From Crossiella sp. SN42 (GTDB taxonomy: Bacteria > Actinomycetota > Actinomycetes > Mycobacteriales > Pseudonocardiaceae), in assembly GCF_023897065.1 (NCBI RefSeq), contig NZ_JAMHIV010000055.1, forward strand, positions 1-45,271: a DNA stretch of 45,271 nucleotides. The letters are read 5' to 3'. The position numbers and the translations under genes were made by a program. Position 1 is the first letter of the stretch. Every line of letters begins with the position of its first letter. This document shows positions 1,255-45,271 of the stretch, in pieces. The notes below the pieces were generated by a model, which made no database searches, had not been told where the DNA came from, and was given only the letters and a program-made list of their open reading frames with translations.

Positions 1255-2472
1255 TCACGGCACCAGTCGCCGGACCACCGCGTCGGCCAGCAGGCGGCCC
1301 TGGTCGGTGAGCACGCAGCGCCCATCGGCCAGGCTGGCCGGGTCGAGCAGGCCGTCCGCGGCGGCCACCCGCGCCTCGCGGCGGCCCGCCTCGTCCAGCA
1401 CCGTCACCGGCAGGCCCTCGACCAGCCGCAGCTCCAGCAGGATGCGCTCCACGTCCCGGTCCTGCGCGGTCAGCGTCTCCCGGCCCGCCGCCGGTGAACG
1501 GCCCTCGGCGAGCAGGGCGGCGTAGCGGCTGGGGTGCTTGACGTTCCACCAGCGCACCCCGCCGACGTGGCTGTGCGCGCCCGGTCCCGCGCCCCACCAG
1601 TCGCCGCCGAGCCAGTAGCCCAGGTTGTGGCGGCAGCGGGCGGCCTCGTCGGTGGCCCAGTTGGAGACCTCGTACCAGGTCAGACCGGCCCGCTGGAGGG
1701 TCTGGTCGACCTGTTCGTAGCGTTCGGCCAGCACGTCGTCGTCCGGGCTGGGCAGCTCGCCCCGGTTGATCCGGCGGGCCAGCGCGGTGCCCTCCTCGAC
1801 GATCAGCGCGTACGCCGAGACGTGGTCGACGCCGCCGGCCAGGACCACGTCCAGGGACTCGGCCAGGTCCTGCGGGCGTTCGCCGGGGGTGCCGTAGATC
1901 AGGTCCAGGTTCACGTGCTCGAACCCGGCGGCCCTGGCTTCCTTCGCCGCGGCGCGGGCGCGGCCGGGTGTGTGCGTGCGGTCCAGGATCTGGAGCACGT
2001 GCGGGGCGGCGGACTGCATGCCGAGGGAGACCCTGGTGTAGCCGGCGGCCAGGATGCCGGCGAAGAACTCCGGGGAGGTGGACTCCGGGTTGGACTCGGT
2101 GGTCACCTCGGCGCCGGGGGCCAGGCCGAAGGTGTCCCGGACCGCGCCGAGCACCGCGGCCAGGCCGTCCGCGCCGAGCAGGGACGGGGTGCCGCCGCCG
2201 ACGAAGACGGTGTCCGCGGCCGGTGGGCTGCCCAGCACCCGGGCGGCCAGCTCCAGCTCCTGGCGCAGCCCGGTCAGCCAGGACTGCGGGGAGGCGGAGC
2301 TGCCCAGCTCACCGGGGGTGTAGGTGTTGAAGTCGCAGTAGCCGCAGCGGGTCGCGCAGAACGGCACGTGCACGTACAGCCCGAACGGTCGGGTGCCGAG
2401 GCCGGTCAGGGCGGTGGCGGGCAGCGCGCCGTCCTGGGGCGCCGGGTCGCCGTCGGGAAGTACGGAAGGCAT
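1255..2472 (-). CDS. hemW: Radical SAM heme chaperone HemW (HemN-like)
   Basis: 405 aa. HemW family of radical SAM enzymes: binds heme and delivers it to target proteins; old annotations call it oxygen-independent coproporphyrinogen III oxidase. The cluster motif is C39xxxC43xxC46 (FCATRCGYCDF); the residue two after the last Cys is Phe, whereas genuine HemN has a fourth Cys there, so HemW is the better name. Also present are FVGGGTPS (SAM-binding glycine motif), TTESNPES and the NLDLIYGTPG strand. The C-terminal part carries the HemN_C-like winged-helix region. It is divergent from the sulfur operon and, from memory, its position downstream of lepA is common in actinobacteria. Confidence 0.9.
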   Translation of the reverse strand: MPSVLPDGDPAPQDGALPATALTGLGTRPFGLYVHVPFCATRCGYCDFNTYTPGELGSSASPQSWLTGLRQELELAARVLGSPPAADTVFVGGGTPSLLGADGLAAVLGAVRDTFGLAPGAEVTTESNPESTSPEFFAGILAAGYTRVSLGMQSAAPHVLQILDRTHTPGRARAAAKEARAAGFEHVNLDLIYGTPGERPQDLAESLDVVLAGGVDHVSAYALIVEEGTALARRINRGELPSPDDDVLAERYEQVDQTLQRAGLTWYEVSNWATDEAARCRHNLGYWLGGDWWGAGPGAHSHVGGVRWWNVKHPSRYAALLAEGRSPAAGRETLTAQDRDVERILLELRLVEGLPVTVLDEAGRREARVAAADGLLDPASLADGRCVLTDQGRLLADAVVRRLVP

Positions 2473-2556
2473 AGCAGCAGTCTCTCAATCCGTCTCACCA
2501 TCCCACTATGCGGATGGCGGTAGACCCATCCCGGGACGCGTGGCACGCTGGTCGTC

Positions 2557-2649
2557 GTGACCTCGCCTGGACGACGCCTGTTCCTCGTGGCCCGCCGCCA
2601 CGTGGACTACCTGCGTGTCTCCAGCGCGCTCTGCCGACGGTACGTCTAG
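2557..2649 (+). CDS. Leader peptide of the sulfate-assimilation operon
   Basis: 30 aa, GTG start, translated here by hand: it ends ARRHVDYLRVSSALCRR followed by two residues and a TAG. The core RRHVDxxRVSSAxCR is the signature of a short leader-peptide family that I recall upstream of sulfur-assimilation and other sulfur genes in actinobacteria. It lies 124 nt upstream of sir and contains one Cys codon near its end. A weak leaderless promoter can be drawn (TAGACC at 2521, 17 nt, CACGCT at 2544, 7 nt, GTG), with a non-ideal -10. Likely role: ribosome-sensed control of the operon by cysteine supply; inference. Confidence 0.7.
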   Translation: MTSPGRRLFLVARRHVDYLRVSSALCRRYV

Positions 2650-2673
2650 TCGGCCGCTGCATTTCTCTTTGCC

Positions 2674-2696
2674 AGCCGGCGACGGGCGTCCCGGCT
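2674..2696 (+). promoter_or_regulatory. Possible attenuator hairpin between leader peptide and sir
   Basis: AGCCGG (2674-2679) pairs with CCGGCT (2691-2696); after a bulged C, GAC (2681-2683) pairs with GTC (2688-2690). It starts 25 nt after the leader stop codon, where ribosome position on the leader could affect folding. No U-tract follows, so it would act by Rho or translational coupling if at all. Confidence 0.35.
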
Positions 2697-2773
2697 GAAG
2701 ATCCCCATCCCACCATGTGAACCCTGGGGCTTCGACGGTGCGCACGGCCGCCTCGAATCCCGGAGGTCGGACC

Positions 2774-4459
2774 ATGGTCCCCCCAACCTCTCCCCCGGCG
2801 CGGGCCGTGAAACAGCGCCGCGGCGAAGGGCAGTGGGCGCTGGGCTACCGCGAGCCGCTGAACCCGAACGAGCGCTCGAAGAAGGACGACAACCCGCTCA
2901 ACGTGCGGGCCCGGATCGAGAACATCTACGCCCGCGGTGGCTTCGACTCCATTGACCCGGCCGACCTTCGCGGACGTTTCCGCTGGTACGGCCTCTACAC
3001 CCAGCGCAAGCCCGGTATCGACGGCGGCCGCACGGCCGTGCTGGAACCGGAGGAGCTCGACGACGAGTACTTCATGCTGCGGGTGCGCGTCGACGGTGGC
3101 GCGCTGAGCACCGAGCAGCTGCGGGTGCTGGGCGAGATCTCCCAGACCTACGCCCGCGACACCGCCGACATCACCGACCGGCAGAACATCCAGTACCACT
3201 GGATCCAGATCGAGGACGTGCCCACGATCTGGGAGAAGATCGAGGCGGTCGGCCTGAGCACCACCGAGGCCTGCGGGGACAGCCCGCGGGTGGTGCTCGG
3301 CTCGCCGGTCGCCGGGATCTCCGCCGATGAGGTCATCGACGGCACCCCGGCCATCCAGGAGATCGTCAAGCGCTACATCGGCGACCCGGCCTACTCGAAC
3401 CTGCCACGCAAGTTCAAGAGCGCCATCTCCGGGTTGCAGGACGTGGCGCACGAGGTCAACGACATCTCCTTCGTCGGCGTCGACCACCCCGAGCACGGGC
3501 CCGGCTTCGACCTGTTCGTCGGCGGCGGCCTGTCCACCAACCCGATGCTGGCCAAGCGGCTCGGCGTGTGGGTGCCCCTGAACGAGGTGCCCGATGTCTG
3601 GGAAGGCGTGATCAGCGTCTTCCGCGACTACGGCTACCGGCGGCTGCGGCACCGGGCGCGGATCAAGTTCCTGGTCGCCGACTGGGGCGTGGAGAAGTTC
3701 CGCGAGGTGCTGGAGACCGAGTACCTCAAGCGGAAGCTGCTCGACGGGGTCGCGCCCGAAGCCACCGCGCCGATCGACCACGTGGGCGTGCACCGGCAGA
3801 AGGACGGCAAGTTCTACATCGGGGTCGCGCCGGTCGCCGGGCGGGTGTCCGGCTCGATCCTGCTGGACGTGGCCAAGGCGGTGGAGCGGGCCGGGTCCCG
3901 CCGGATCCGGCTGACCGCGCAGCAGAAGCTGGTCGTGCTGGACGTGGCAGAGTCCGAAGTGGACAGTCTGGTGGACGAGCTGGCCGCGCTGGGCCTGCAC
4001 GCCAAGCCCTCGCCGTGGCGGCGCACCACCATGGCCTGCACCGGCATCGAGTTCTGCAAGCTGGCCATCGTGGAGACCAAGGCCCGCGCCGCGCGCCTGG
4101 TCGAGGAGCTGGAGCGGCAGCTCGCCGACGTCCAGGACACCCTGGCCGAGGCGGCGATCAGCGTGCACATCAACGGCTGCCCCAACTCCTGCGCCCGGAT
4201 CCAGACCGCGGACATCGGGCTCAAGGGCCAGATCGTGACCAACGGCGAGGGCCAGCAGGTCGAGGGCTACCAGGTGCACCTGGGCGGCGGGCTCGGCCTG
4301 GACGCAGGCTTCGGCCGGAAACTGCGCGGGCACAAGGTGACCGCGGCCGAGCTGGGTGAGTACGTGGCGCGGGTCGCGCGCAACTTCGTGGCCCAGCGCA
4401 CCGAGGGAGAGCGGTTCGCCCAGTGGGCGGCCCGCGCCGAGGAGGCCGATCTGCGATGA
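2774..4459 (+). CDS. sir: Ferredoxin-dependent sulfite reductase (SirA/NirA type)
   Basis: 561 aa. Reduces sulfite to sulfide with six ferredoxin electrons, using siroheme and a [4Fe-4S] cluster. The ATG at 2774 is chosen for a GGAGG at 2762-2766; the frame is open upstream. Two nitrite/sulfite reductase ferredoxin-like half-domains flank the siroheme-binding regions. Cluster cysteines are C422, C428, C469 and C473 (ACTGIEFC, NGCPNSC). WYGLYTQR places a Tyr at 75 and ACGDSPR a Cys at 167, at the spacing of the Tyr-Cys crosslink described for M. tuberculosis SirA. Basic substrate residues RRxxxR and KxK-type loops are present. First large gene of the operon; its stop overlaps the next start. 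Confidence 0.93.
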   Translation: MVPPTSPPARAVKQRRGEGQWALGYREPLNPNERSKKDDNPLNVRARIENIYARGGFDSIDPADLRGRFRWYGLYTQRKPGIDGGRTAVLEPEELDDEYFMLRVRVDGGALSTEQLRVLGEISQTYARDTADITDRQNIQYHWIQIEDVPTIWEKIEAVGLSTTEACGDSPRVVLGSPVAGISADEVIDGTPAIQEIVKRYIGDPAYSNLPRKFKSAISGLQDVAHEVNDISFVGVDHPEHGPGFDLFVGGGLSTNPMLAKRLGVWVPLNEVPDVWEGVISVFRDYGYRRLRHRARIKFLVADWGVEKFREVLETEYLKRKLLDGVAPEATAPIDHVGVHRQKDGKFYIGVAPVAGRVSGSILLDVAKAVERAGSRRIRLTAQQKLVVLDVAESEVDSLVDELAALGLHAKPSPWRRTTMACTGIEFCKLAIVETKARAARLVEELERQLADVQDTLAEAAISVHINGCPNSCARIQTADIGLKGQIVTNGEGQQVEGYQVHLGGGLGLDAGFGRKLRGHKVTAAELGEYVARVARNFVAQRTEGERFAQWAARAEEADLR

Positions 4460-4614
4460 GCGAACGAGCGACGCCGTTCTACTGCCCCTACTGCGGGGAC
4501 GAGGACCTGCGACCGGAGGAGGAGCCGCACGGCGCGTGGGGCTGCACCGCCTGCCAGCGGGTGTTCTCGCTGAAGTTCGCCGGCCTGCGACGCCCGGTGG
4601 AGGTGACCCGGTGA
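4456..4614 (+). CDS. Small zinc-ribbon protein inside the sulfur operon
   Basis: 52 aa. Four cysteines in two CxxC pairs (C10/C13 in YCPYCG and C30/C33 in GCTAC) predict a zinc ribbon. Its ATG overlaps the sir stop (ATGA), and its own stop overlaps the GTG of cysH (GTGA), so it is translationally locked between sulfite reductase and APS reductase. I recall small proteins of this type next to sulfite reductase in Streptomyces, sometimes mis-called insertion element proteins. Function unknown; a role in assembling or delivering to the Fe-S/siroheme enzymes is only a guess from position. Confidence 0.8.
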   Translation: MSERATPFYCPYCGDEDLRPEEEPHGAWGCTACQRVFSLKFAGLRRPVEVTR

Positions 4615-5306
4615 GCACCACGACCGATCTCCAGGCCCTCGCCGAGCGGGCCGGTCAGGAACTGGCCGAGGCCACCGCGACCGAGGCGCTGACCTGGGTC
4701 GCGGAGACCTTCCCGCTGGAGCGCTGGATCCTGGCCTCGAACATGCAGGACGCGGTGCTGATCGACCTGGCGGCCAAGGTCACCAGCGGTTTCGACGTGC
4801 TGTTCCTGGAGACCGGGTACCACTTCCCGGAGACCATCGGCACCCGAGACGCGGTTGCCACGGTGTACCCCGTGAACATCGTCAACGCGCTGCCGGACCT
4901 GACCGTGGCCGAGCAGGACGCCGAGCACGGGCCGAACCTGTTCGAGCGCGCGGCCGACCGCTGCTGCGCGATGCGCAAGGTGATCCCGCTGCGGCGCACG
5001 CTGTCCCGCTACGACGCCTGGGTCACCGGCGTGCGCAGGGTGGACGCGCCGACGCGGGCGAACACGCCGATCGTGGGCTGGGACGAGCGCAACGGGCTGG
5101 TCAAGATCAACCCGATCGCGGCCTGGACCGACGAGGAGTTCAACGCCTACATCGCCGAGCACGGCATCCTGGAGAACCCGTTGGTGGGCGCGGGATATCC
5201 GTCCATCGGCTGCGCACCCTGCACGGCCAAGCCGTTGCCGGGCGCGGACCCGCGCAGCGGTCGCTGGGCGGGCAAGGCCAAGACCGAGTGCGGACTGCAC
5301 GGGTGA
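4611..5306 (+). CDS. cysH: Adenylyl-sulfate (APS) reductase, [4Fe-4S] type
   Basis: 231 aa. Reduces APS to sulfite and AMP with thioredoxin. The presence of C118-C119 (DRCCAMRK) and C201xxC204 (GCAPC) gives the four cluster ligands that distinguish APS reductases from the cluster-free PAPS reductases, and the catalytic Cys is C227 in TECGLH near the C terminus. The PP-loop region is represented by ILASNMQDAVL. GTG start at 4611 overlaps the preceding stop. Using APS directly means that no APS kinase (CysC) is needed, and none is seen in this window. Confidence 0.93.
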   Translation: MSTTTDLQALAERAGQELAEATATEALTWVAETFPLERWILASNMQDAVLIDLAAKVTSGFDVLFLETGYHFPETIGTRDAVATVYPVNIVNALPDLTVAEQDAEHGPNLFERAADRCCAMRKVIPLRRTLSRYDAWVTGVRRVDAPTRANTPIVGWDERNGLVKINPIAAWTDEEFNAYIAEHGILENPLVGAGYPSIGCAPCTAKPLPGADPRSGRWAGKAKTECGLHG

Positions 5307-5317
5307 GGGCGGGGGGA

Positions 5318-6229
5318 ATGACGAGCACGCTGCGACCGGCCCAGGACAACTTGACTGCCCTGGAGTCCGAAGCGATCCACATCTTCCGGGAGGTGGCCGG
5401 GGAGTTCGACCGGCCGGTGATCCTGTTCTCCGGCGGCAAGGACTCCACGGTGCTGGTGCACCTGGCGCTCAAGGCCTTCTGGCCGGCGCCGGTGCCGTTC
5501 ACCCTGCTGCACGTGGACACCGGCCACAACTTCGAGGAGGTCATCACCTTCCGGGACGAGCTCGTCGCCCGGCACGGGCTGCGGCTGGAGGTCGCGCACG
5601 TGCAGGACTGGATCGACGACGGCCGCCTGCAGGAACGCCCGGACGGCACCCGCAACCCGCTGCAGACCGTGCCGCTGCTGGACTCCATCACCGCGCACAA
5701 GTTCGACGCGGTCTTCGGCGGCGGCCGCCGGGACGAGGAACGCGCCCGCGCCAAGGAGCGCATCTTCAGCCTGCGCAACGCCTTCGGTCAGTGGGAGCCC
5801 AAGCGGCAGCGGCCCGAGCTGTGGAACCTCTACAACGGACGGCACCGGCCGGGCGAGCACGTCCGGGTGTTCCCGCTGTCCAACTGGACCGAGCTGGACA
5901 TCTGGCGCTACATCGAGCGGGAGCACATCGAGCTGCCCTCGATCTACTTCGCGCACCAGCGCGATGTCTACCTGCGCGACGGCATGTGGCTCACCGAAGG
6001 CCCGTGGGGCGGCCCACAGCCGGGCGAGACCGTGCTGCACAAGACCATCCGGTACCGCACGGTCGGCGACGGCTCGTGCACCGGGGCGGTGGAGTCGCAG
6101 GCGAGCGACCTCGCCGCGGTGATCGCCGAGGTCTCCGCCTCCCGGCTCACCGAACGCGGCGCCACCCGCGCCGACGACCGGCTCAGCGAAGCGGCCATGG
6201 AAGACCGGAAGCGAGAGGGTTACTTCTGA
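5318..6229 (+). CDS. cysD: Sulfate adenylyltransferase small subunit
   Basis: 303 aa. Catalytic subunit of the CysDN ATP sulfurylase that makes APS from sulfate and ATP. The PP-loop SGGKDS is at residues 38-43; the family blocks HVDTGHNF, FGGGRRDEERARAKER and FPLSNWTELDIW are all present. I take the ATG at 5318, preceded by GGGGGGA; a GTG at 5303 that overlaps the cysH stop is an alternative adding five residues. The stop codon overlaps the cysN start (TGATG), as expected for a heterodimer made from one mRNA. Confidence 0.94.
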   Translation: MTSTLRPAQDNLTALESEAIHIFREVAGEFDRPVILFSGGKDSTVLVHLALKAFWPAPVPFTLLHVDTGHNFEEVITFRDELVARHGLRLEVAHVQDWIDDGRLQERPDGTRNPLQTVPLLDSITAHKFDAVFGGGRRDEERARAKERIFSLRNAFGQWEPKRQRPELWNLYNGRHRPGEHVRVFPLSNWTELDIWRYIEREHIELPSIYFAHQRDVYLRDGMWLTEGPWGGPQPGETVLHKTIRYRTVGDGSCTGAVESQASDLAAVIAEVSASRLTERGATRADDRLSEAAMEDRKREGYF

Positions 6230-7566
6230 TGACCGACCTGCTGAGGCTGGCCACCGCCGGATCCGTCGACGACGGCAAGTCCACGCTGGTCGGCCGCCTG
6301 TTGTACGACACCAAGTCCGTGCTCGCCGACCAGCTGGAAGCAGTGCAGCGGGCCAGCGTCGACCGCGGGCTGTCCACACCGGACCTGTCCCTGCTGGTGG
6401 ACGGCCTGCGCTCGGAACGCGAGCAGGGCATCACCATCGACGTGGCCTACCGCTACTTCGCCACCCCCCGGCGCAGCTACGTGCTCGCCGACACCCCCGG
6501 ACACGTGCAGTACACCCGCAACACGGTCACCGGCGCGTCCACCGCGCAGCTGGCCATCCTGCTGGTGGACGCGCGCAAGGGCGTGATCGAGCAGACCAGG
6601 CGGCACGCGGCCGTGCTGGCCATGCTCGGCGTGCCGCAGCTGGTGCTGGCGGTCAACAAGATCGACCTCATCGACTACGACGAGGCCAAGTTCGGGCTGA
6701 TCGCCAAGGAGTTCCTGGCGCACGCCAACGCGTTGGGCTATCCCGAGGAGTCGGTGCTGTCCGTGCCGGTCTCCGCGCTGGTCGGCGACAACGTGGTGGA
6801 CCGCTCCGAGCGCACCCCCTGGTACACCGGACCGACCCTGCTGGAGCACCTGGAAACCGTGCCGGTGCAACCGGATCCGCACGACGCGCCGTTCCGCTTC
6901 CCGGTGCAGTACGTGATCCGGCCGCGCACGCCCGAGTACCCCGACTACCGGGGCTACGCGGGCCAGGTGGCGGCCGGGGTGGTGCGGCCGGGCGATGAGG
7001 TCGTGGTGCTGCCCGCCGGGCTGCGCAGCACCGTGGTGCGCATCGACACCGCGGACGGCGAACTCACCGAAGCGGGGGCCGGGCAGTCGGTGACCCTGTT
7101 GCTGGACAACGATTTGGACATCTCCCGTGGCGACCTGATCGCCAGTGCGGAACACTCTCCCTCAGTCAGCGACGAGCTCAACGCCACCGTCTGCTGGCTG
7201 GCGGAGAAACCGTTGCGCGCCAACGCCAGGGTCCTGATCAAACACGGCACCCGCACCGTCCCCGCCATCGTCACCGAGCTGTCCGACCGCTTCGACGAAC
7301 AGCGCCTGTCCACTGTGGACACGCCGGACTCGCTGGAGCTCAACCAGATCGGCCGGGTGCTCATCCGCACCGCGGAGCCGCTCCCGGTCGACGAGTACAC
7401 CAGCAGCAGGCGCACCGGGTCCTTCCTGGTGATCGACCCGAACGACGGCGGCACCCTGGCCGCCGGCCTCATCGGCGCCCCCCTGCCCATCCCGGATGTC
7501 CACGAGGACGCCGGACTCGGCGACGCGACCGCCGACGACCGAGCCCTCGTCTCCCCCGGCCCCTAG
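6229..7566 (+). CDS. cysN: Sulfate adenylyltransferase large subunit, GTPase
   Basis: 445 aa. EF-Tu-like GTPase that couples GTP hydrolysis to APS synthesis by CysD. G1 is GSVDDGKST (11-19), followed by GITIDVAYRYF (G2), DTPGH (G3) and NKID (G4), then two beta-barrel domains. There is no APS kinase domain fused at the C terminus, unlike CysNC of mycobacteria, consistent with the APS-reductase route. The gap to the next gene is 32 nt and contains its ribosome site, so the transporter genes are probably on the same mRNA. Confidence 0.94.
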   Translation: MTDLLRLATAGSVDDGKSTLVGRLLYDTKSVLADQLEAVQRASVDRGLSTPDLSLLVDGLRSEREQGITIDVAYRYFATPRRSYVLADTPGHVQYTRNTVTGASTAQLAILLVDARKGVIEQTRRHAAVLAMLGVPQLVLAVNKIDLIDYDEAKFGLIAKEFLAHANALGYPEESVLSVPVSALVGDNVVDRSERTPWYTGPTLLEHLETVPVQPDPHDAPFRFPVQYVIRPRTPEYPDYRGYAGQVAAGVVRPGDEVVVLPAGLRSTVVRIDTADGELTEAGAGQSVTLLLDNDLDISRGDLIASAEHSPSVSDELNATVCWLAEKPLRANARVLIKHGTRTVPAIVTELSDRFDEQRLSTVDTPDSLELNQIGRVLIRTAEPLPVDEYTSSRRTGSFLVIDPNDGGTLAAGLIGAPLPIPDVHEDAGLGDATADDRALVSPGP

Positions 7567-7598
7567 CCATCTCTGCCTTGTCTCCCAGGAGGAATCCC

Positions 7599-8690
7599 GT
7601 GCGCACCCCGCGACGCCGCCATCGCGTCCTGCCCGCAGTGCTCGCCGCCACCGCGCTGGTCGCCGCGGTGAGCGGCTGCACCAGGGCCGCCGAGTCGACC
7701 GCCCAGGCGAGCGACTCCGGACCGGCGGCGGAACTGCGACTCGGCTTCTTCCCCAACGTCACGCACGCCCCGGCCCTGGTCGGCATCGACGAGGACCGCA
7801 AGTTCATCGCCAAGGAGCTGGGCGGCACCAAGCTCAGCACCCAGGCGTTCAACGCCGGACCCTCGGCGGTGGAGGCGCTGCTGGCCGGGTCGCTGGACGC
7901 GACCTTCATCGGGCCCAACCCGACCATCAACGCCTTCACCAAGTCCAACGGCAAGGCGATCCGGTTGATCGCGGGCGCGGCCACCGGCGGCGCGCAGCTG
8001 GTGGTGCGCAAGGAGATCACCGGCCCGCAACAGCTCAAGGACAAGACCATCGCCACCCCGCAGCTGGGCGGCACCCAGGACGTGGCGCTGCGGGCCTACC
8101 TGGCCCAGCAGGGGCTGAAGGTGGAGACCACCGGCGGCAAGGACGTCAAGATCGCCAACACGGAGAACCCGCAGACCTTCGACGCCTTCCGCACCGGCCA
8201 GCTCGACGGCGGCTGGCTGCCCGAGCCCTGGGCCTCCCGCCTGGTGCTGGAGGCAGGCGGCAAGGTGCTGGTGGACGAGCGGGACCTGTGGCCGGGCGGC
8301 AAGTTCCCCACCACGGTGCTGATCGTGCGCACCGAGTTCGCGCAGAAGCACCCGGCGACGGTGCGGGCACTGTTACGTGGACATGTTGCCGCGACCAAGT
8401 TCCTCAACGACAGCCCGGCCGAGGCCAAGAAGACGGTCAACGCCGCGCTGGGCAGGTACGCGGGCAAGCCGCTGCCGGAACCGGTGCTGGAGCGCTCGTT
8501 CAGCCAGATCGCCTTCAGCACCGACCCGGCCGCGAGCACCTTCCCCAAGCTGTCCAAGGACGCCGTGGCCGCCGGGGTGGCCAAGCAGGAGTTCGACCTC
8601 AAGGGACTCGTCGACCTGACCGCGCTGAACGAGGCGCTACGGGCCGCCGGGCTGCCCACCGCTGACGCATCCGGACTTGACGGAAAGTGA
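7599..8690 (+). CDS. SsuA-like substrate-binding lipoprotein
   Basis: 363 aa. Periplasmic-binding-type lipoprotein of an ABC importer. GTG start at 7599 follows a perfect AGGAGG at 7587-7592. Signal peptide with lipobox AVSGC, lipidated Cys at residue 27. The mature part reads LRLGFFPNVTHAPAL and later LDATFIGPNPTINAF, the NMT1/SsuA/TauA fold that binds sulfonates, taurine or related anions. Because it sits in an APS operon and no desulfonase is nearby, sulfate or thiosulfate could be the substrate; sequence alone does not decide. One rare TTA codon lies at 8373. Confidence 0.88.
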   Translation: MRTPRRRHRVLPAVLAATALVAAVSGCTRAAESTAQASDSGPAAELRLGFFPNVTHAPALVGIDEDRKFIAKELGGTKLSTQAFNAGPSAVEALLAGSLDATFIGPNPTINAFTKSNGKAIRLIAGAATGGAQLVVRKEITGPQQLKDKTIATPQLGGTQDVALRAYLAQQGLKVETTGGKDVKIANTENPQTFDAFRTGQLDGGWLPEPWASRLVLEAGGKVLVDERDLWPGGKFPTTVLIVRTEFAQKHPATVRALLRGHVAATKFLNDSPAEAKKTVNAALGRYAGKPLPEPVLERSFSQIAFSTDPAASTFPKLSKDAVAAGVAKQEFDLKGLVDLTALNEALRAAGLPTADASGLDGK

Positions 8691-8700
8691 GGGCACGGTC

Positions 8701-9489
8701 ATGACCGCGACTCTGGAACACCTTCGCCCGTCCGGCCACCTCGCCGAGGCGGTGGTGCACCTGGACAACGTGACCAAGTCCTTCGGCCGCGGCGCGAACA
8801 CCGTGGTGGCCCTGGACGGGGTCGAGCTGACCGTGCGGCCGGGCGAGTTCGTCTGCCTGCTCGGCGCCTCCGGCTGCGGCAAGTCCACCCTGCTCAACCT
8901 GGTGGCCGGCCTGGACAAGCCGACCGCGGGCACCGTGTCCGTCCACAGTGGACGGCCCGCGGTGGTCTTCCAGGAGCCCGCGCTGATGCCCTGGCTCACC
9001 GCGGCCCGCAACGTCGAGCTGCCGCTGCGGCTGCGCGGCCTGGGCCGGGCCGAGCGCGCGGCCACCGCGACCAAGCTGCTGGACCTGGTGCGGCTGGCCG
9101 AGGTCGGCCGCAAGCGCCCGCACGAGCTCTCCGGCGGCATGCGCCAGCGGGTCGCGCTGGCCCGCGCGCTGGCCACCACCCTGGACGAGGCCGAGGGCGG
9201 CAACCCGTTGCTGCTCATGGACGAGCCCTTCGCCGCGCTGGACGCGATCACCAGGGACGCGCTGCAGGGCGAGCTGCGCCGGATCTGGGAGCGCACCGGC
9301 ACCGCGGTGCTCTTCGTCACCCACGACGTGCGCGAGGCGGTCCGGCTCGGCCAGCGGGTGGTGCTGCTGTCCTCCCGGCCGGGCCGGGTGGTGCGCGAGT
9401 GGGCGATCAACGAACAGGACACCGGCAAGCTGACCGAGGAGATCACCGGCCACCTCCGGGAGGTGATCTCCAGCCATGGCCGTTCCTGA
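8701..9489 (+). CDS. ABC transporter ATPase, SsuB-like
   Basis: 262 aa. ATP-binding subunit of the importer. Walker A GASGCGKST, signature LSGGMRQR, Walker B LLLMDEPFAALD and the switch His in FVTHDVREAV are all intact. The sequence is closest in type to the nitrate/sulfonate/taurine ATPases. ATG at 8701, 10 nt after the lipoprotein gene. Its end overlaps the permease gene by 14 bp. Confidence 0.92.
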   Translation: MTATLEHLRPSGHLAEAVVHLDNVTKSFGRGANTVVALDGVELTVRPGEFVCLLGASGCGKSTLLNLVAGLDKPTAGTVSVHSGRPAVVFQEPALMPWLTAARNVELPLRLRGLGRAERAATATKLLDLVRLAEVGRKRPHELSGGMRQRVALARALATTLDEAEGGNPLLLMDEPFAALDAITRDALQGELRRIWERTGTAVLFVTHDVREAVRLGQRVVLLSSRPGRVVREWAINEQDTGKLTEEITGHLREVISSHGRS

Positions 9490-10360
9490 GGCCAAATCCG
9501 GCGAGGACCTGGCCGCGCTGGAAGCCGGGCTGGACGCCCTCGACGCGCCGACGACTGCCCGCTCCCGCGGCGGCTGGCTCCGGTTCGCCCGCACGGTGCT
9601 GCCGCCGCTGGTGGCGCTGGCGCTGATCCTGGTGGTGTGGCAGGTGTTGTGGGCCTCGGCGATCGAGCCGGAGTACAAGCTGCCCGCCCCGCTCACCGTG
9701 GCCGGGGTGCTGTGGGAGCGGATGCTGGACGGCCAGGCCTGGGAGACGCTGTGGGTCTCCACCCACCGCGCGGTGCTGGGCTTCCTGGCCGCGGTGGCCA
9801 TCGGCACCCCGCTGGGCCTGGTGGTGGCCCGGATCTCGTTGGTGCGCGCGGCGATCGGGCCGTTGCTGAGCGGGTTGCAGAGCCTGCCCTCGGTGGCCTG
9901 GGTGCCGGCCGCGCTGCTGTGGCTGGGCCTCAACGACTCGATGATCTACGCCGTGGTGCTGCTGGGCGCGGTGCCCTCCATCGCCAACGGCCTGGTCGCC
10001 GGGATCGACCAGGTGCCGCCGCTGCTGCTGCGGGTGGGCACGGTGCTGGGCGCGGGCCGGTTGCAGTCCGCCCGGCACGTGCTGCTGCCCGCCGCGCTGC
10101 CCGGCTACCTGGCCGGGCTCAAGCAGGGCTGGGCGTTCTCCTGGCGTTCGCTGATGGCCGCGGAGATCATCGCCCGCTCGCCGGACCTGGGCATCGGCCT
10201 CGGGCAGATGCTGGAGGAGGGCCGCCAGCTCACCGACATGTCGCTGGTGATCGCGGCGATCCTGTTGATCCTGCTGGTCGGCATCGGCGTGGAGCTGCTG
10301 TTCTTCCGTCCCTTGGAGCGCGTGGTGCTGCGCGCCCGCGGCCTGGCCACGGCGGTGTGA
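9476..10360 (+). CDS. ABC transporter permease, SsuC-like
   Basis: 294 aa, membrane-embedded subunit of the sulfur-compound importer. About six hydrophobic segments; the cytoplasmic coupling loop reads ARHVLLPAALPGYLAGLKQG, the EAA-type motif of binding-protein-dependent permeases. The cytoplasmic N terminus (about 35 residues) is hydrophilic. Overlaps the ATPase gene by 14 bp and the chelatase gene by the A of TGATG, so the three are translated from one mRNA. Confidence 0.9.
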   Translation: MAVPEAKSGEDLAALEAGLDALDAPTTARSRGGWLRFARTVLPPLVALALILVVWQVLWASAIEPEYKLPAPLTVAGVLWERMLDGQAWETLWVSTHRAVLGFLAAVAIGTPLGLVVARISLVRAAIGPLLSGLQSLPSVAWVPAALLWLGLNDSMIYAVVLLGAVPSIANGLVAGIDQVPPLLLRVGTVLGAGRLQSARHVLLPAALPGYLAGLKQGWAFSWRSLMAAEIIARSPDLGIGLGQMLEEGRQLTDMSLVIAAILLILLVGIGVELLFFRPLERVVLRARGLATAV

Positions 10361-11926: not shown

Positions 11927-12703
11927 ATGGCTGACGAACTCGTCCACTACGCGGTCGACCGCGGCATCGCCGAGATCACCCTCGACTCCCCGCACAACCG
12001 CAACGCCCTCTCCGCCCAGCTCCGCCGCGAGCTGCGCGCGCACCTGAGCACCGCCATCGCCGACGAGGCGGTGCGGGTGGTCGTGCTGGGCCACACCGGC
12101 ACCGTGTTCTGCTCCGGCATGGACCTCAAGGAGTCCCGCGGCGCCGGTGCGGGCGACCAGGGCGTGAACGAGTTCCCGGCGATCCTGGAACAGATCTGGA
12201 CCAGCCCGAAACCGGTGGTGGCCAAGGTCGCGGGCCCGGCCCGCGCCGGTGGCGTCGGCATCGTGGCCGCCTGTGACATCGCGGTGGCCACCCACGCGGC
12301 CAGCTTCGCCTTCACCGAGGTCCGCATCGGCGTGGTCCCGGCGGTCATCTCGGTCACCGTGCTGCCCCGGCTGCTGCCGCGCGCCGCGCACGAGCTGTTC
12401 CTCACCGGCGAGAAGTTCGACGCCCAGCGCGCCGCGGCCATCGGCCTGATCAACTCCGCGGTCGCCGCCGAAGACCTGGACACCGAGGTCCGCCGCTACA
12501 CCGACATGCTCGCCCTGGGCGGCCCGAACGCGCTGGCCGCCACCAAGGCCATGCTCCGCCGCCCCCCGGCCGCGGGCCTGGGCGAGGACTTCGCGGACAT
12601 GCTGGAGCTCTCCGCGGCGCACTTCGCCAGCGCCGAGGGCCAGGAGGGCATCCGCGCCTTCGCCGAGAAGCGCCCGGCCTCCTGGGTGCCCGCGGCCGAG
12701 TGA
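11927..12703 (+). CDS. Enoyl-CoA hydratase/isomerase-family protein
   Basis: 258 aa, crotonase fold. The oxyanion-hole segments are GTVFCSGMDLKE and the GPARAGGVGIVAACD loop. The Glu that usually follows GGG in hydratases (E144 of rat crotonase) aligns with Gly here, while the second Glu (E164 equivalent) is kept in FAFTEVRIG. A one-Glu enzyme may be an isomerase, a hydrolase or a hydratase of relaxed mechanism, so the specific reaction is open. Stand-alone gene between terminators, probably read from a leaderless mRNA. Confidence 0.85.
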   Translation: MADELVHYAVDRGIAEITLDSPHNRNALSAQLRRELRAHLSTAIADEAVRVVVLGHTGTVFCSGMDLKESRGAGAGDQGVNEFPAILEQIWTSPKPVVAKVAGPARAGGVGIVAACDIAVATHAASFAFTEVRIGVVPAVISVTVLPRLLPRAAHELFLTGEKFDAQRAAAIGLINSAVAAEDLDTEVRRYTDMLALGGPNALAATKAMLRRPPAAGLGEDFADMLELSAAHFASAEGQEGIRAFAEKRPASWVPAAE

Positions 12704-12720
12704 GTCCCGGCCGCGGGCGC
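12686..12720. terminator. Hairpin over the crotonase stop codon
   Basis: 12686-12698 pairs with 12708-12720 (13 bp with one G-T pair), loop of 9 nt that contains the stop codon. It lies between two convergent genes and may terminate both; no U-tract. Confidence 0.5.
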
Positions 12721-12725
12721 ACCGG

Positions 12726-13334
12726 CTAGGACTTGAACGGGGCGGTCAGGCAGGCCAGGCGCTCACCGGCGGTGCCCGCCTTGCCGTGGTCGTGGTGGTT
12801 GGTGGGGTCGATGTGCAGCACCACCGAGTTGGCCTCGTTCGGCCGCCACTTCCACTCCACCGTGGCCGAGACCTTGGCCGCGCCCGCGGCGTCGGTCTCG
12901 AAGTCCAGCCAGACCTCGTTCTTCGGGTTGGCGAAGGCCGGGTCCACCGAGGGCTGCACCGGGTCCAGCTTGTCCTGGTAGTGCGGTCCGGAGTCCGCGG
13001 GCTTCGGGCCGCACACCTTGGTGTGCACGTGCGAGCCGTACTTGCGGTTGGGGCGCAGACCGGTGACGTCAAGGGTCACCGTGGTGCGGCCGTCGGCGGA
13101 GGCGCCGGTGACCGTGCCCGCCGCGCCCGCGGGCACCAGCTCGGTGTTGTAGACCACGGCGGGTGGCTGGGCGCCGGTGGCCGCCGGTGGGGCGAAGGTC
13201 GCCGACACCAGCGGGGCCGGGGCCGCGCTGCTGGTCGCGCTGGAGGTCTGTGGGGAGCCGGTCCCGCCGGACGAGCACGCCGTGAGACCGAGGATCGCCA
13301 CCGCGGTCAGCACGGCCGGGGTCATTCGTCGCAT
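12726..13334 (-). CDS. Cu-type superoxide dismutase-like lipoprotein (SodC family)
   Basis: 202 aa. Lipoprotein with lipobox LTAC (C20), then a Ser/Thr/Ala linker. The SodC fold is recognised by SHVHTKVCGP (H102, H104, C108), GPHYQ (H118), VVLH (H174) and AGERLACL (R192, C195). These give the four copper ligands, the conserved disulfide C108-C195 and the active-site Arg. The loop that normally holds the zinc ligands is replaced by an acidic/aromatic stretch without His, so a zinc-free copper enzyme is likely, as in M. tuberculosis SodC. An extra His cluster (NHHDH, 179-183) follows the last ligand. Protects the envelope from superoxide; inferred. Confidence 0.82.
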   Translation of the reverse strand: MRRMTPAVLTAVAILGLTACSSGGTGSPQTSSATSSAAPAPLVSATFAPPAATGAQPPAVVYNTELVPAGAAGTVTGASADGRTTVTLDVTGLRPNRKYGSHVHTKVCGPKPADSGPHYQDKLDPVQPSVDPAFANPKNEVWLDFETDAAGAAKVSATVEWKWRPNEANSVVLHIDPTNHHDHGKAGTAGERLACLTAPFKS

Positions 13335-13394
13335 GCCAGCCGATTCTGGCCCTGCGCCAGGGATCTCGCCAAACCGGGTGCCTCTTTGGTGTCG

Positions 13395-14153
13395 CTACCG
13401 CAGTGCGTGCTCGGTGAACTGCCCGCAGACCTGGAAGCCCAGCCGCCGGTACACCGGCTCGCCCTCGGCCGAGGCCTGGAGCACCGCGGTCCGGTAGCCG
13501 GCGTCGCGGGCCAGGTGCAGGGCCGCGTCGGTGATCGCGCCGCCGAAGCCGCGGCGGCGGTGGCTGCTCGCGGTGCAGACGTTGTAGAGCCCGGCGACCC
13601 CGGCGTGCAGGGTCACCTCGGCGGTGCACACCGGCTGCCCGTCGGCGTAGCCCACCAGGAACTTCGCCGCGCGGTCCAGTGCGACGGGCTGGGCGTAGTA
13701 GGCGCGGACCGTGGCCGAGGGCGGGTCCCACAGCGTGGCCAGCACCCCGGCGTAGTCGGCCAGCTGTTCCGGCGTGCGCGCCACCACCACGTCCAGGCCC
13801 TCGGCCCCGCGCGGCGCGGCCAGCTCGTCCAGGCTGGCCCACATCGCGGTCTCGGACTCGGTGGCGGACAGCCCGGCCGCGCTCAGCCGCGCGGACAGGT
13901 CACCCGGCGTCGAGGCCGGGCCGACCCACCAGGAGAACGGGCGGCCGGTGCGGCGCAGCGCCTCGATGGTCTCGGCGATCCGGCGGTCCGCGGTCGCCTC
14001 GGTGAACCGGGCCCCGGCGATGATGTTGAAGGTGTCATCGGCCAGGCCGCTGTCGGCGTAGAACAGGTCCGCGGCCCGCACCACCCGCGCCGGGTCGTGC
14101 AACAGGCTCGCGTGCCGGGCGAGATTGGCCTCCATCTGGTCCAGCGACTCCAT
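13395..14153 (-). CDS. GNAT-family N-acetyltransferase
   Basis: 252 aa. The C-terminal half has the acetyl-CoA-binding signature ([18 protein letters not shown], the Q/RxxGxG/A loop) followed by the [22 protein letters not shown] helix-strand pair typical of GNATs. The N-terminal half ([13 protein letters not shown]) may be a substrate or second degenerate GNAT domain. The ATG at 14153 is preferred over one 4 codons upstream, because TATGGT (14166-14161) lies exactly 7 nt before it and includes the other ATG. Substrate unknown. Confidence 0.85.
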
Positions 14154-41316: not shown

Positions 41317-41430
41317 ACCGGCAATCCTTTCACGGGGGTCTGACAGCCCTGCGGCCTCCCGCATACTGGGCTGGCGGTAGCTCTCAGTGGCGACCGTGCC
41401 GTACGGTGAGCCACAGACAACTGAATACAG
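41317..41430 (+). promoter_or_regulatory. Promoter region of the riboswitch transcript
   Basis: CCGTACGG is an 8-bp palindrome at 41399-41406, and TACGGT (41402-41407) a possible -10 that would start the transcript near 41414, before the riboswitch P1 stem. No clear -35. The holA promoter must lie in the same stretch. Confidence 0.35.
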
Positions 41431-41557
41431 CTCATCCAGAGGGGTAGAGGGATCGGCCCTACGACACCCCGGCAACCGGCACAGGCTCGACGCGAATTCC
41501 GCGAGGGAGCAGGTGAACACGGTGCCAAATCCGCCCCGCGACAGCGGGAAAGATGAG
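41431..41557 (+). ncRNA. SAM-I riboswitch (S-box leader)
   Basis: Conserved S-box blocks in order: CTCATCCAGAGGGG (P1 and P2 start), GGGATCGGCCCTACGACACC, CCGGCAACC, GGTGCCAAATCC, and GCGGGAAAGATGAG at the 3' end. P1 is CTCATC (41431-41436) with GATGAG (41552-41557). The GAGGAG ribosome site of the next gene (41555-41560) begins inside the 3' strand of P1, so SAM binding should hide it; no terminator stem follows, which favours translational control. Confidence 0.95.
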
Positions 41558-41570
41558 GAGATACCTCGCG

Positions 41571-42836
41571 ATGACGACCATCGAGGCGCCCAGCAGCGCC
41601 CAGCAGACCCTTGACCTCGGCCCGGCGCGCAGCCTGGTCTGCCGGGAGTGCGGCCACCAGGTCCCACTCGCCGCCGAGTTCGCCTGTGCCGAGTGTTTTG
41701 GTCCCCTTGAGGTCGGCTACGACTTCGGGACCGTCCGCCGGGAGGACATCGAGGCGGGCCCGCAGTCGATCTGGCGCTACCGCAACCTGCTCCCCGTGCC
41801 GTCCACTGTGGACGCCCACCCGAACACCGACCCCGGCTGTACCAGGCTGGTCCGCGCGGACCGCCTGGCCAAGGCGCTGGGCGTCCGCCGGATCTGGGTG
41901 AAGGACGACACCGGCAACCCCACCCACTCGTTCAAGGACCGCGTGGTCGCGGTGGCCCTGGCCGCCGCCCGCGAACTGGGCTTCAAGGTCCTGGCCTGCC
42001 CCTCCACCGGCAACCTGGCCAACGCCGTGGCCGCGGCCGCCGCCCGCGCCGGCTGGGAGTCGGTGGTGCTGATCCCGTCCTCGCTGGAACGGGCCAAGAT
42101 CCTCACCACCGCCGTGTACGACGGCGCCCTGATCGCCGTCGACGGCAACTACGACGACGTGAACCGCCTGGCCACCGAGCTGGCCGCGGACCACGAGGAC
42201 TGGGCGTTCGTCAACGTCAACGTCCGGCCCTACTACGCCGAGGGCTCCAAGACCCTGGGCTACGAGGTCGCCGAGCAGCTCGGCTGGCGGCTGCCGGACC
42301 AGATCGTGGTGCCCATCGCCTCCGGCTCCCAGCTGACCAAGGTCGACAAGGGCTTCCGCGAACTGGGCGAACTCGGCCTGGTCGAGCAGAGCCCGTACCG
42401 CGTCTTCGGCGCCCAGGCCACCGGCTGCTCCCCCGTCGCCGCCGCCTTCAAGGCAGGTCACGACGTGGTGACCCCGGTCAAGCCGGACACCATCGCCCGC
42501 TCCCTGGCCATCGGCGCCCCCGCCGACGGCCCGTACGTGCTCGACACCGTCCGCCGCACCAACGGCGCCATTGAGAACGTCTCCGATGAAGAGGTGGTCG
42601 AGGGCATCCGGCTGCTGGCCCGCACCGAGGGCATCTTCGCCGAGACCGCGGGCGGCGTGACCGTCGCGACGGCCAAGAAGCTCATCGAGACCGGCCAGCT
42701 CGACCCGGACGCCGAGACCGTGCTGCTGATCACCGGCGACGGCCTGAAGACCCTGGACGCGGTGCAGGACCGGATCGGCCCCCGCGCCACCGTCCCGCCG
42801 TCGGCCGCGGCGGTCCGCGAGGCCCTCGGCCTCTGA
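41571..42836 (+). CDS. thrC: Threonine synthase-family PLP enzyme; candidate MetM homocysteine synthase
   Basis: 421 aa, fold type II PLP enzyme. An N-terminal zinc ribbon (C24xxC27, C39xxC42) precedes a threonine-synthase domain: Schiff-base lysine K122 in PTHSFKDR, phosphate loop STGNLANAVAAA, and SGSQLTKVDKG. The ATG at 41571 is preferred: an ATG at 41553 lies inside riboswitch P1. SAM-I control means that it responds to methionine status. Homologues called MetM in Streptomyces turn O-phosphohomoserine into homocysteine with a thiocarboxylated carrier protein MetO; no metO-like gene follows here. Either threonine synthase or MetM; the riboswitch favours the latter. Confidence 0.92.
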   Translation: MTTIEAPSSAQQTLDLGPARSLVCRECGHQVPLAAEFACAECFGPLEVGYDFGTVRREDIEAGPQSIWRYRNLLPVPSTVDAHPNTDPGCTRLVRADRLAKALGVRRIWVKDDTGNPTHSFKDRVVAVALAAARELGFKVLACPSTGNLANAVAAAAARAGWESVVLIPSSLERAKILTTAVYDGALIAVDGNYDDVNRLATELAADHEDWAFVNVNVRPYYAEGSKTLGYEVAEQLGWRLPDQIVVPIASGSQLTKVDKGFRELGELGLVEQSPYRVFGAQATGCSPVAAAFKAGHDVVTPVKPDTIARSLAIGAPADGPYVLDTVRRTNGAIENVSDEEVVEGIRLLARTEGIFAETAGGVTVATAKKLIETGQLDPDAETVLLITGDGLKTLDAVQDRIGPRATVPPSAAAVREALGL

Positions 42837-42849
42837 TCCCACGCTTCAC

Positions 42850-42897
42850 CGCACGGCGTGCCGGCCGGTTCTTGTGACCGGGGTGGCACGCCGTGCG
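42850..42897 (+). terminator. Terminator hairpin after the thrC-like gene
   Basis: 13-bp stem (42850-42862 with 42885-42897); an inner CCGGT/ACCGG stem forms in the loop. It is followed by TGTTTGTGG. Confidence 0.75.
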
Positions 42898-42917
42898 TGT
42901 TTGTGGCGGACGGCGCG

Positions 42918-43064
42918 CGGACGGCTCGGACGGCTCGGACGGCGAGCGTTCGTGGCGGATTGGCGTGCGGGTACCGCAGGCTGCCATGCGGGCATCGCGG
43001 GTTGGCGCGCGGGTGCGGCAGGTCGGCGTGCGGGCGTCGCGAGTTGGCGTGCGGGTGCCGCGGG
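42918..43064. repeat. Short tandem repeats between thrC-like gene and comEC
   Basis: Three copies of CGGACGGCT (42918-42943, last one with a changed end), then five copies of a 21-bp unit like TTGGCGTGCGGGTGCCGCGG at 42960, 42981, 43002, 43023 and 43044. The unit is 7 codons long and stays open on both strands, so small peptides are conceivable, but no start or ribosome site supports it. Confidence 0.85.
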
Positions 43065-43073
43065 TTGGCTGGG

Positions 43074-45271
43074 TCATCTGGGTGTCCGGGATTTTTCTTT
43101 GCCGTGGCGGGAGATCACCGGGCCTTGTGGGCTGGGGGCGATGGCCAGGTCGCCGTCTTGGTCGGTGCGCAGCACCTGGGTGCCCTGGGTGTCCAGGGTG
43201 TCCAGGATCAGTGGGCTGGGGTGGCCGTAGTCGTTGTCCGCGCCGACGCTGATCAGCGCGACCCGGGGCCGGACGGTGGCCAGGAACCTGGGCAGGCTGT
43301 AGCGGGAGCCGTGGTGCGGGACCTTGAGTATGTCGGCGGACAGCTCGGATCCCTTGTCCGCCAACAGGTCTGCTTGACCGGCTAGTTCGATGTCGCCGGT
43401 GAGCAGGACCCGGCCCGCGGTGGTGTGCGCGCGGATGACCAGTGAGGCGTCGTTGAGGGCGGTGCCGCTGGCGCGTTCGCCGGTGGCACCCAGCGCGGTG
43501 GGGCTGCGGGGGCCGAGGATGTCGACGGTCAGTGCGGGCCAGGTGGTGCTGGTGCCCGGGTGGAGCTCGACCAGGGGCACGTCCGCGGCCTCGGTGGCGC
43601 GGCGGATTTCCTTGACGGCCCAAGGTGGTTGCTGGACGGAGCTGATGCCGACCGCGCCCACCGCGTGCTCGGCGAGGACCTCGGCCAAGCCGCCGATGTG
43701 GTCGGCGTGCAGGTGGGTGAGAACCAGCAGCGGAATCCGGTCGATGTCCAGGTCGCGGAGGCAGGCGATGATGGCGATCGGGTCGGGGCCGGTGTCGATC
43801 AGCACCGCGCGGCCCGGATCGGCGGTGGCGAGGACGATGGCATCGCCTTGGCCGACGTCGCAGGCCACCACGGCCCAGCCGGGTAGCGGCCAGCCGGGGC
43901 GCAGCACGCGGATGGGCACCAGGACCAGGATCGCGAGCAGGACCGCCGCCAGGAACAGGACGCGGAACCGGCGTCGCCGTAGCAGCAGGGCGAGCACTAG
44001 CAGCACGCCGATGAGGAGGAAGGCGCCGCCGACACCACTCGGCCAGGGCAAGGTGGACATGGGCACGGCGGCCGCGTGGTGGGCGACGGTGACCAGCCAC
44101 CACATCGCCGGGCCGGTGACGTGGACCAGGAGCTCGGCGGCGCCGGGATGGATCACCGACAGGACGGCGGCCAGCACACCGAGGACCGTGGCCAGGGCGA
44201 CCACCGGGGCGGCGAGCAGATTGGCCAGGATGGCGATGAGGCTGAGTTCGCCGGTCATGCCGACCACCACCGGGGCGGTGAACAGGTGGGCCGCGGCGGG
44301 GATGGCCAGCGCTTCGGCCAGACCGCCGGGGACGCGGCGTTGACGCAGGTTGTCCGACCAGCGTGGGGCCAGCAGCACCAGGGCCGTGGTGGCCAGTACG
44401 GACAGCAGGAAGCCCAGGTCGCCGGCGAGTTCGGGATCGGCGAGCAGCAGGATCGTGATGGTGCCAGCCAGGGCGGGGATCGCGGCTCGTTCCCGTCCGG
44501 AGGTCAGGGCGTAGAGGCCGATGGCGGCCATGACCGCGGCGCGGAGGACGCTCGGCTGGGGCCGGGCCAGGATCACGAATCCCAGTAGTGCCAAGGCCGC
44601 TGCCGCTGTCGCCGTGCGGGGACCCGCGCGGAGGGCTTGGCACAGCAGGAGAACCGCGCCGCAGACGATCGCCAGGTTGGTGCCGCTGACGGCCAGCAGG
44701 TGCGACAGGCCAGCGGCACGGAAGTCGGCGACGACCCTGGGGGCGAGGGTCGTGGTGTCGCCGACCACCAGGGAGGGCAACAGGCCCGCCTGGTCGGCGG
44801 GGAGGACGGAGCTGGCCTGGCGGAGGCCGGTGCGGATGTCGGTGGCGGCGCGTTGCCAGAACGGTGGTGTGCCAAGGAGTTCTGGCGATTTGTGCACCCG
44901 GAGCACGGCGGCTGTCAGGTCGCCGGGGCGGGCTGGGGCCAGTTTTCCGGTGGTGCGCAGGCGTTGGCCGGGTGAGACCGCGGACCAGGAGTCGTGCAGG
45001 GCGAGCAGGAGGACGGTGCCGCCGGTGGACATCTGGTCGCCGGTGGTGTGCGCGGATTCGAGTTCGAGGGTGAGGACAGTGCCGTTGCTGTTGGTGGGAC
45101 GGCCGCCGTAGGCCGGGGTGCGCATGGGGCGGGGGTCGCCGGTGACGGTGCCGGTGAGGGTCGCGGTGGCGCCTCGTTCGGCGAGGGCGTGCAGGGGGTG
45201 GGTGGCGGTGGCGTGGGTTCTGAGGGCGATGCCGATGGCGGCGGCTCCGGCCAGGGCGCAGGTGGTGAGGG
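43074..45271 (-). CDS. comEC: ComEC/Rec2-family DNA-uptake protein, 5' end cut by the window
   Basis: Partial, at least 732 aa; the reading frame continues through the window edge, where a hydrophobic stretch (LTTCALAGAAAIGIAL) shows the missing N terminus. An N-terminal OB-like region is followed by the competence membrane domain (HLLAVSGTNLAIV motif) and a C-terminal metallo-beta-lactamase domain with THLHADHIGG and PHHGSRYS. Forms the channel for single-stranded DNA uptake in competent bacteria; widespread in actinobacteria without proven competence. The internal ATG at 45125 is not the start. Confidence 0.93.
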   Translation of the reverse strand, partial: LTTCALAGAAAIGIALRTHATATHPLHALAERGATATLTGTVTGDPRPMRTPAYGGRPTNSNGTVLTLELESAHTTGDQMSTGGTVLLLALHDSWSAVSPGQRLRTTGKLAPARPGDLTAAVLRVHKSPELLGTPPFWQRAATDIRTGLRQASSVLPADQAGLLPSLVVGDTTTLAPRVVADFRAAGLSHLLAVSGTNLAIVCGAVLLLCQALRAGPRTATAAAALALLGFVILARPQPSVLRAAVMAAIGLYALTSGRERAAIPALAGTITILLLADPELAGDLGFLLSVLATTALVLLAPRWSDNLRQRRVPGGLAEALAIPAAAHLFTAPVVVGMTGELSLIAILANLLAAPVVALATVLGVLAAVLSVIHPGAAELLVHVTGPAMWWLVTVAHHAAAVPMSTLPWPSGVGGAFLLIGVLLVLALLLRRRRFRVLFLAAVLLAILVLVPIRVLRPGWPLPGWAVVACDVGQGDAIVLATADPGRAVLIDTGPDPIAIIACLRDLDIDRIPLLVLTHLHADHIGGLAEVLAEHAVGAVGISSVQQPPWAVKEIRRATEAADVPLVELHPGTSTTWPALTVDILGPRSPTALGATGERASGTALNDASLVIRAHTTAGRVLLTGDIELAGQADLLADKGSELSADILKVPHHGSRYSLPRFLATVRPRVALISVGADNDYGHPSPLILDTLDTQGTQVLRTDQDGDLAIAPSPQGPVISRHGKEKSRTPR

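Follow-up and report, generated by a model that had tools for sequence, protein, structure and literature searches.

A SAM-I riboswitch precedes a candidate MetM-type homocysteine synthase gene without a neighboring metO in Crossiella sp. SN42

MetM, a member of the threonine synthase (ThrC) family, reportedly receives its sulfur as a thiocarboxylate from a carrier protein, MetO. We take SCO4294 to be metO, and SCO2911 and SCO2912 to be cysO and mec, respectively. MetM was identified as a homocysteine synthase in Streptomyces by Hasebe et al. in 2024, and in S. albulus a SAM riboswitch lies upstream of metM and a metO exists (PMC12172450), so the pairing of MetM with a SAM riboswitch upstream was known before. 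According to the same source, a Microcystis homolog without the riboswitch shows threonine synthase and deaminase activity in vitro, and a cyanobacterial homolog with a metO-like neighbor gene, showing both activities in vitro, has no clear methionine role. SCO4293 (putative threonine synthase), SCO4294, SCO2910 (cysM), SCO2911, SCO2912, and cys genes have been grouped as 'Sulfate assimilation genes' (PMC2267785), and an ArgR site lies upstream of SCO4293 (PMC3293853). We liken MetM to the Mycobacterium CysO-CysM-Mec system, in which a PALP-family PLP enzyme is fed by the thiocarboxylate of a ubiquitin-fold carrier and MoeZR thiocarboxylates CysO, MoaD1, and MoaD2 (PMC3227635). Amycolatopsis BexX has no carrier of its own and uses those of primary metabolism (PMC11323500); it belongs to secondary metabolism and to another enzyme family.

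The window analyzed here is the whole 45,271-nucleotide stretch of Crossiella sp. SN42 contig NZ_JAMHIV010000055.1. Like S. albulus MetM (Hasebe et al. 2024, AEM e01247-24, as described in PMC12172450), its ThrC-family gene has an upstream SAM riboswitch; unlike it, the window gene and those of 30 other loci have no adjoining metO. A sequence-only reading had placed an S-box core directly before a ThrC-family gene with an N-terminal zinc ribbon, and all three elements were recovered (Table 1). The aptamer is full-length, covering positions 1 to 108 of RF00162 (SAM-I) at 75.2 bits (gathering score 44.4, E 5.6e-16), and is the sole Rfam match over gathering score in the window.

Table 1. Coordinates of features in the window
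Feature	Position	Strand	Basis or remark
Assimilatory sulfate-reduction and ABC-transporter genes	2717..10357	+	NCBIfam matches
SAM-I (S-box) riboswitch aptamer	41429..41559	+	RF00162, orthologous leaders
Helix P1, 5' strand (CUCAUC)	41431..41436	+	cmscan alignment and predicted fold
Helix P1, 3' strand (GAUGAG), sharing bases with Shine-Dalgarno	41552..41557	+	cmscan alignment, predicted fold
Likely Shine-Dalgarno GAGGAG	41555..41560	+	read in sequence
metM-type gene	41571..42836	+	421 aa from likely ATG; TIGR00260 279 bits, own clade
N-terminal zinc-ribbon cysteines C30-C33-C45-C48 (numbered from 41553)	41640..41696	+	alignment, 59 orthologs
Presumed PLP-lysine codon K128, motif NPTHSFKDR	41934..41936	+	K in 59/59 orthologs
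STGNLA loop (ThrC: STGNTS)	42003..42020	+	alignment
Stretch occupied by metO in other lineages	42837..43076	+	empty here, up to ComEC-like ORF (- strand)

We read 59 loci, namely the window, 18 relatives, and 40 of 135 other genomes of the class with MetM, picked across families. A SAM riboswitch stands ahead of the ortholog in 58 of them (57 of 58 besides the window), and at the sole aptamer-less locus, L030, the contig ends 5 bases upstream. The longest frame of the window gene, 41553-42836, encodes 427 aa and its 5' end overlaps the 3' end of the aptamer. The ATG at 41571 is the likelier start, since 41553 lies within aptamer helix P1 and GAGGAG stands 10 nt ahead of 41571. The gap between aptamer and this ATG is 11 nt, which leaves no space for a terminator. 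A terminator between aptamer and gene was likewise rejected for 57 of 58 aptamer-gene pairs, in which the gene starts 6 to 18 nt past the aptamer; the remaining pair, L073, has a short aptamer match (62 nt) lying 205 nt ahead of the start used.

We infer that the window switch represses translation in response to SAM: plentiful SAM would close helix P1, hide the Shine-Dalgarno sequence, and stop translation. In 44 of 58 leaders, the final ten bases of the aptamer contain a complete Shine-Dalgarno-like 4-mer. Simple hiding is weakened for 37 of 58 leaders, where such a 4-mer lies fully behind the aptamer; the window leader is not among these and is unaffected. Between the Shine-Dalgarno sequence and the start (window 41561-41570), CCTCGC or a similar stretch is frequent in relatives; in the predicted fold it pairs with the GAG of the Shine-Dalgarno sequence and may be part of the switch. 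Two SAM riboswitches were found in the genome, the second (L009, G000:C3:201676-201766, 52.9 bits, G000 being the Crossiella genome) before a MetN-type ABC ATPase that scores 286 bits against the MetN model, below its cut-off of 500.

The curated thrC model TIGR00260 still names the window protein a threonine synthase (cut-off 167), which counts against MetM function, as does the cyanobacterial homolog with its threonine synthase and deaminase activities in vitro. NF006050 scores slightly higher, at 283 bits, and is not passed (cut-off 303); Pfam reports PALP only. The closest solved chains are threonine synthases (PDB 6cgq, 1uim, 2d1f, and 2zsj), homologous over about 330 to 350 residues at E 1.4e-51 to 6e-49. 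Unlike ThrC, the window gene has an extra N-terminal zinc ribbon and a SAM riboswitch. The zinc-ribbon columns 30, 33, 45, and 48 are C in 55 to 56 of 59 orthologs; in three of the 59 proteins (L073, L074, and L075, family f26) all four cysteines are replaced. Orthologs of family f27 are 60 to 68% identical to the window protein.

Residue comparison and phylogeny both set the window protein apart from ThrC. Thirty-four columns are conserved in 95% or more of the 59 orthologs and differ there from a residue common to all four ThrC, a set that includes two nearly identical proteins. They include L155 and A156 after STGN, found in 59/59 orthologs where 4/4 ThrC have T and S; A256-S257-G258 for G-N-A (ASGS for GNAG); and V131-V132 for G-M. 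The lysine motif is mostly NPTHSFKDRVV for the NPTGSFKDRGM of ThrC, with H125, a G in the ThrC motif, in 56 of 59 orthologs and N in three. From the enzyme family, we take K128 to be the PLP lysine and the loops with discriminating residues to hold PLP and substrate. In a tree of 74 proteins, the 59 orthologs form one group apart from the 4 actinobacterial ThrC and 11 other ThrC-like proteins (support 100/99), so that the window protein, a threonine synthase by curated model, does not group with ThrC. The tree holds no characterized MetM sequence, and the clade is tied to S. albulus MetM by the gene arrangement they have in common, metO and riboswitch included. How the three ThrC-like families branch relative to one another is unsure, with long branches and a very long one for L003. 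The third family, L003 (G000:C10:98335-99336) with L194-L203, has an N-terminal zinc ribbon and an STNGNAG or similar loop; the tree places it with neither ThrC nor MetM, and L003 is very divergent.

The MetM function proposed in the sequence-only reading gains from this separate clade, from a second thrC in the genome, and from the absence there of detectable metX, metA, and MetY (see below); we hold it to be very probable that the window gene encodes a homocysteine synthase. MetM would turn O-phosphohomoserine (OPHS) into homocysteine, diverting OPHS from threonine to methionine.

As anticipated, no metO-like gene follows the window gene: the HMM scan found no sulfur-carrier ORF in 1,497 downstream bases. 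At 28 of 59 loci, the start of a carrier protein lies no more than 200 bases downstream of metM, whereas no metO was found by HMM beside metM at 31, the window and 30 of the 58 others (1.2 to 3 kb scanned in 30, and 219 bases in L028). A search for ORFs ending exactly in GG, which returned 24 loci, was discarded since it misses carriers with 1 or 2 extra C-terminal residues. The 31 include all 21 loci from the order of Crossiella sp. SN42. The metO trait requires 6 to 7 changes on the tree, at least 4 of them forced by well-supported branches. Among the relatives in a contig collection, where at least 591 stretches matched and at least 549 encoded a relative, the best 80 of these at least 549 were kept; in none of these 80 best named relatives did the flank retrieved, of 2.5 kb at most and shorter for a few, contain a carrier ORF; a simple pattern detected the S-box core in 79, the exception being L262. 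Saccharothrix, Allokutzneria, Actinokineospora, and the like were closest among the matches listed (81 to 90% identity over most). Loss of metO through redundancy of MetM is not a general explanation, since 16 of the 31 metO-less genomes also lack metX. With 31 loci of one clade lacking it, metO is no fair defining feature of MetM, and screening for metM-metO pairs would overlook these 31 of 59 loci. We found no metO-less metM described in the open-licence PMC literature, and this form, with its 6 to 7 changes and 16 genomes lacking metX, may be new. It poses the question of whether one ubiquitin-like carrier serves both cysteine and methionine synthesis.

Without a neighboring MetO, MetM would take its sulfur from the thiocarboxylate of a borrowed carrier, a step that we somewhat favor. 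The genome encodes four PF02597 proteins: CysO, ThiS (adjoining thiG), a third next to moaA (361 bits), and a fourth next to a BNR/sortilin-type protein. The sequence-only reading had left the donor as a carrier encoded elsewhere or free sulfide. The search that it proposed for a MoaD/ThiS-type metO ended with no neighboring metO and four candidates elsewhere, and the choice has narrowed toward CysO, with sulfide retained. As in Mycobacterium, CysO is encoded in a mec-cysO-cysM operon. The window gene lies outside it, and MetM would differ from CysM in using OPHS rather than O-phosphoserine. CysO is available, and carrier sharing has a precedent in BexX. We prefer borrowing of CysO, the carrier found in the largest number of genomes, with Mec peptidase releasing homocysteine; CysO as the particular donor is a tentative assignment, somewhat short of an even chance.

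All metO-less genomes except G041, 30 out of 31, were searched for PF02597 (matches other than CysO were partly classified). CysO with both mec and cysM was present in 28 of the 30 and CysO was not found in G018 and G093, the latter only 84% complete. CysO is also present in 13/13 metO-bearing genomes searched; its presence does not discriminate the donor, which lowers the shared-CysO reading. MetO and CysO form separate groups (SH-aLRT 98, from few columns), and the idea of a MetO-like CysO in metO-less genomes was rejected, as CysO scores show no shift toward MetO (medians of -25.3 and -33.3 bits, compared with -26.3). Across many actinobacteria, Crossiella sp. SN42 among them, a riboswitch-controlled homocysteine synthase might repeatedly have lost its private carrier and now share CysO with cysteine synthesis, a scenario that we put forward with some reserve. 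If so, one carrier and one peptidase would feed both sulfur amino acids, with the SAM riboswitch dividing the flow.

Alternatively, MetM could need no carrier and accept free sulfide produced by the assimilatory operon. The sulfide-producing operon announced at the other end of the window was confirmed: CysH, CysD, and CysN each exceed one or more curated cut-offs, the protein ahead of them matches NirA/sulfite-reductase models below their cut-offs, and ABC-transporter parts follow. It is a possible source of sulfide, otherwise without link to metM. Such a direct route would account for the 31 loci lacking metO, for G018 and G093 lacking CysO as well, and for the unshifted CysO scores. Against it, MetM as described reportedly uses the carrier MetO, and no MetM columns separate metO-bearing from metO-less enzymes at the thresholds used, which argues against an altered sulfur chemistry. 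Moreover, G018 has another GG-type carrier. We consider free sulfide unlikely, yet the most credible substitute for a borrowed carrier. The G018 carrier (L168, G018:C13:85715-85972) is MetO/CysO-like, ends in PAVAGG plus a short tail, and shares a contig with metM at a distance of about 75 kb; its host has metM and lacks metX and CysO.

A borrowed carrier other than CysO, whether the BNR-linked ThiS-family protein, ThiS, or MoaD, is improbable. The BNR-linked protein (L012, G000:C60 about 11953-13667) has a VAGG end and stands directly behind the BNR/sortilin-type protein; it scores against the MetO/CysO profile, of which it was itself a seed member, and such pairs recur in 10 of 18 further loci fetched. 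Borrowing of primary-metabolism carriers by BexX (PMC11323500) would suit these proteins too. The view of the BNR-linked carrier as a moved MetO is weakened by two genomes with metM and no metX: G020 (96% complete), whose single PF02597 protein is CysO, and G006 (a single contig), whose three are CysO, a ThiS encoded next to thiG, and a protein of MoaD length. Both also speak against the other non-CysO carriers.

The window gene could instead be a second threonine synthase, or a synthase/deaminase, with SAM control only balancing OPHS use; the TIGR00260 score and the threonine formed in vitro by a cyanobacterial homolog (PMC12172450) would fit. The genome (9.7 Mb in 82 contigs, with a listed completeness of 100%) has a dedicated thrC homolog, so that the window gene is not its only one; this second protein is 35% identical to the window protein (TIGR00260, 294 bits), and its gene comes after one for homoserine dehydrogenase (547 bits against a cut-off of 205). 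The hom-thrB cluster expected around it was found in part. About 6.7 kb beyond hom-thrC and on its strand, behind other genes, comes the N-terminus of a homoserine kinase (thrB; 131 aa within the piece retrieved), giving a layout hom-thrC...thrB and no tight cluster; this N-terminus scores 91 bits with TIGR00191, under the full-length cut-off of 168 because 119 of 304 positions are covered. The first ORFs downstream of hom-thrC are DUF3558 proteins, and the gap (G000:C20 about 129890-137600) holds two DUF3558 lipoprotein-type genes and others, all on the same strand.

The distribution of MetM and MetX across 197 genomes of the class also opposes a second threonine synthase. MetM, counted at a best match below 1e-110, is present in 136 genomes, the other 61 having a best match of 4.5e-67 or weaker, or none. 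MetX, counted at E 1e-60 because no genome, C. glutamicum included, reaches the model cut-off of 500 bits, is present in 112. Both occur in 59 genomes, MetM only in 77, MetX only in 53, and neither in 8 (G026, G029, G033, G095, G100, G103, G159, and G169); at 90% completeness or more (176 genomes), the counts are 57, 65, 50, and 4. MetM and MetX thus cover for each other (Fisher p 4e-9, with kinship ignored). MetM is found at E 1e-60 in 19 of the 21 nearest genomes, Crossiella sp. SN42 counted among them; the remaining two, G014 and G019, both show a MetX-family match, which is weak (2.8e-53) in G014. In the 77 genomes with MetM and no MetX, the gene curated as threonine synthase is probably the methionine enzyme. 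With the dedicated thrC, this mutual cover, the separate clade with its changed loops, and the riboswitch at 58 of 59 loci, a second threonine synthase is very improbable.

No metX match was found in the genome at E 1e-40 and no metA was found; among five strong PF01053 proteins none exceeds the MetY cut-off, one passes the cystathionine gamma-synthase and one the cystathionine gamma-lyase cut-off, and three pass no cut-off among those shown. The genome thus lacks a detectable acyltransferase-sulfhydrylase pair, and no homoserine acyltransferase was found there to supply the gamma-synthase-type protein L080, so neither a complete metX-metY nor a complete metB route was found alongside the window gene. 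Cystathionine gamma-synthases of plants use OPHS. That L080 (NF005871, 675 bits, cut-off 513) makes homocysteine from OPHS in this way, leaving the window gene another role, is the least probable reading of all, as its gene adjoins a cystathionine beta-synthase gene (TIGR01137, 679 bits) in a reverse-transsulfuration layout, neither genomic SAM riboswitch stands before it, and OPHS use by this enzyme class is not known outside plants.

Same-genus relatives differ in this respect. MetX is present in 3/3 same-genus genomes searched (E about 1e-124), and MetY exceeds its cut-off in all three (G001, G002, and G003). When the 7,254-base metX-metY region of G002 was aligned to the Crossiella sp. SN42 genome, positions 1-1274, 1440-1829, and 4637-7221 were collinear with contig C19, 4439-4599 were inverted, and 1830-4438, which hold metX (1838-2878) and metY (3001-4254), were unmatched. 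An assembly gap is ruled out: contig C19 is intact across the place, with no N in the 3,389 bases read. We infer that metX-metY was lost here rather than gained in the relatives. With metX, metA, and MetY not found and the relatives' metX-metY missing, the window gene is the strongest candidate in the genome for making homocysteine. At the metX-metY place, C19 about 131664-131744 (L188 about 2026-2106) carries a short R-rich ORF with a single C near its end, preceding an OsmC-like ORF (both by eye); this short ORF may be a leader peptide.
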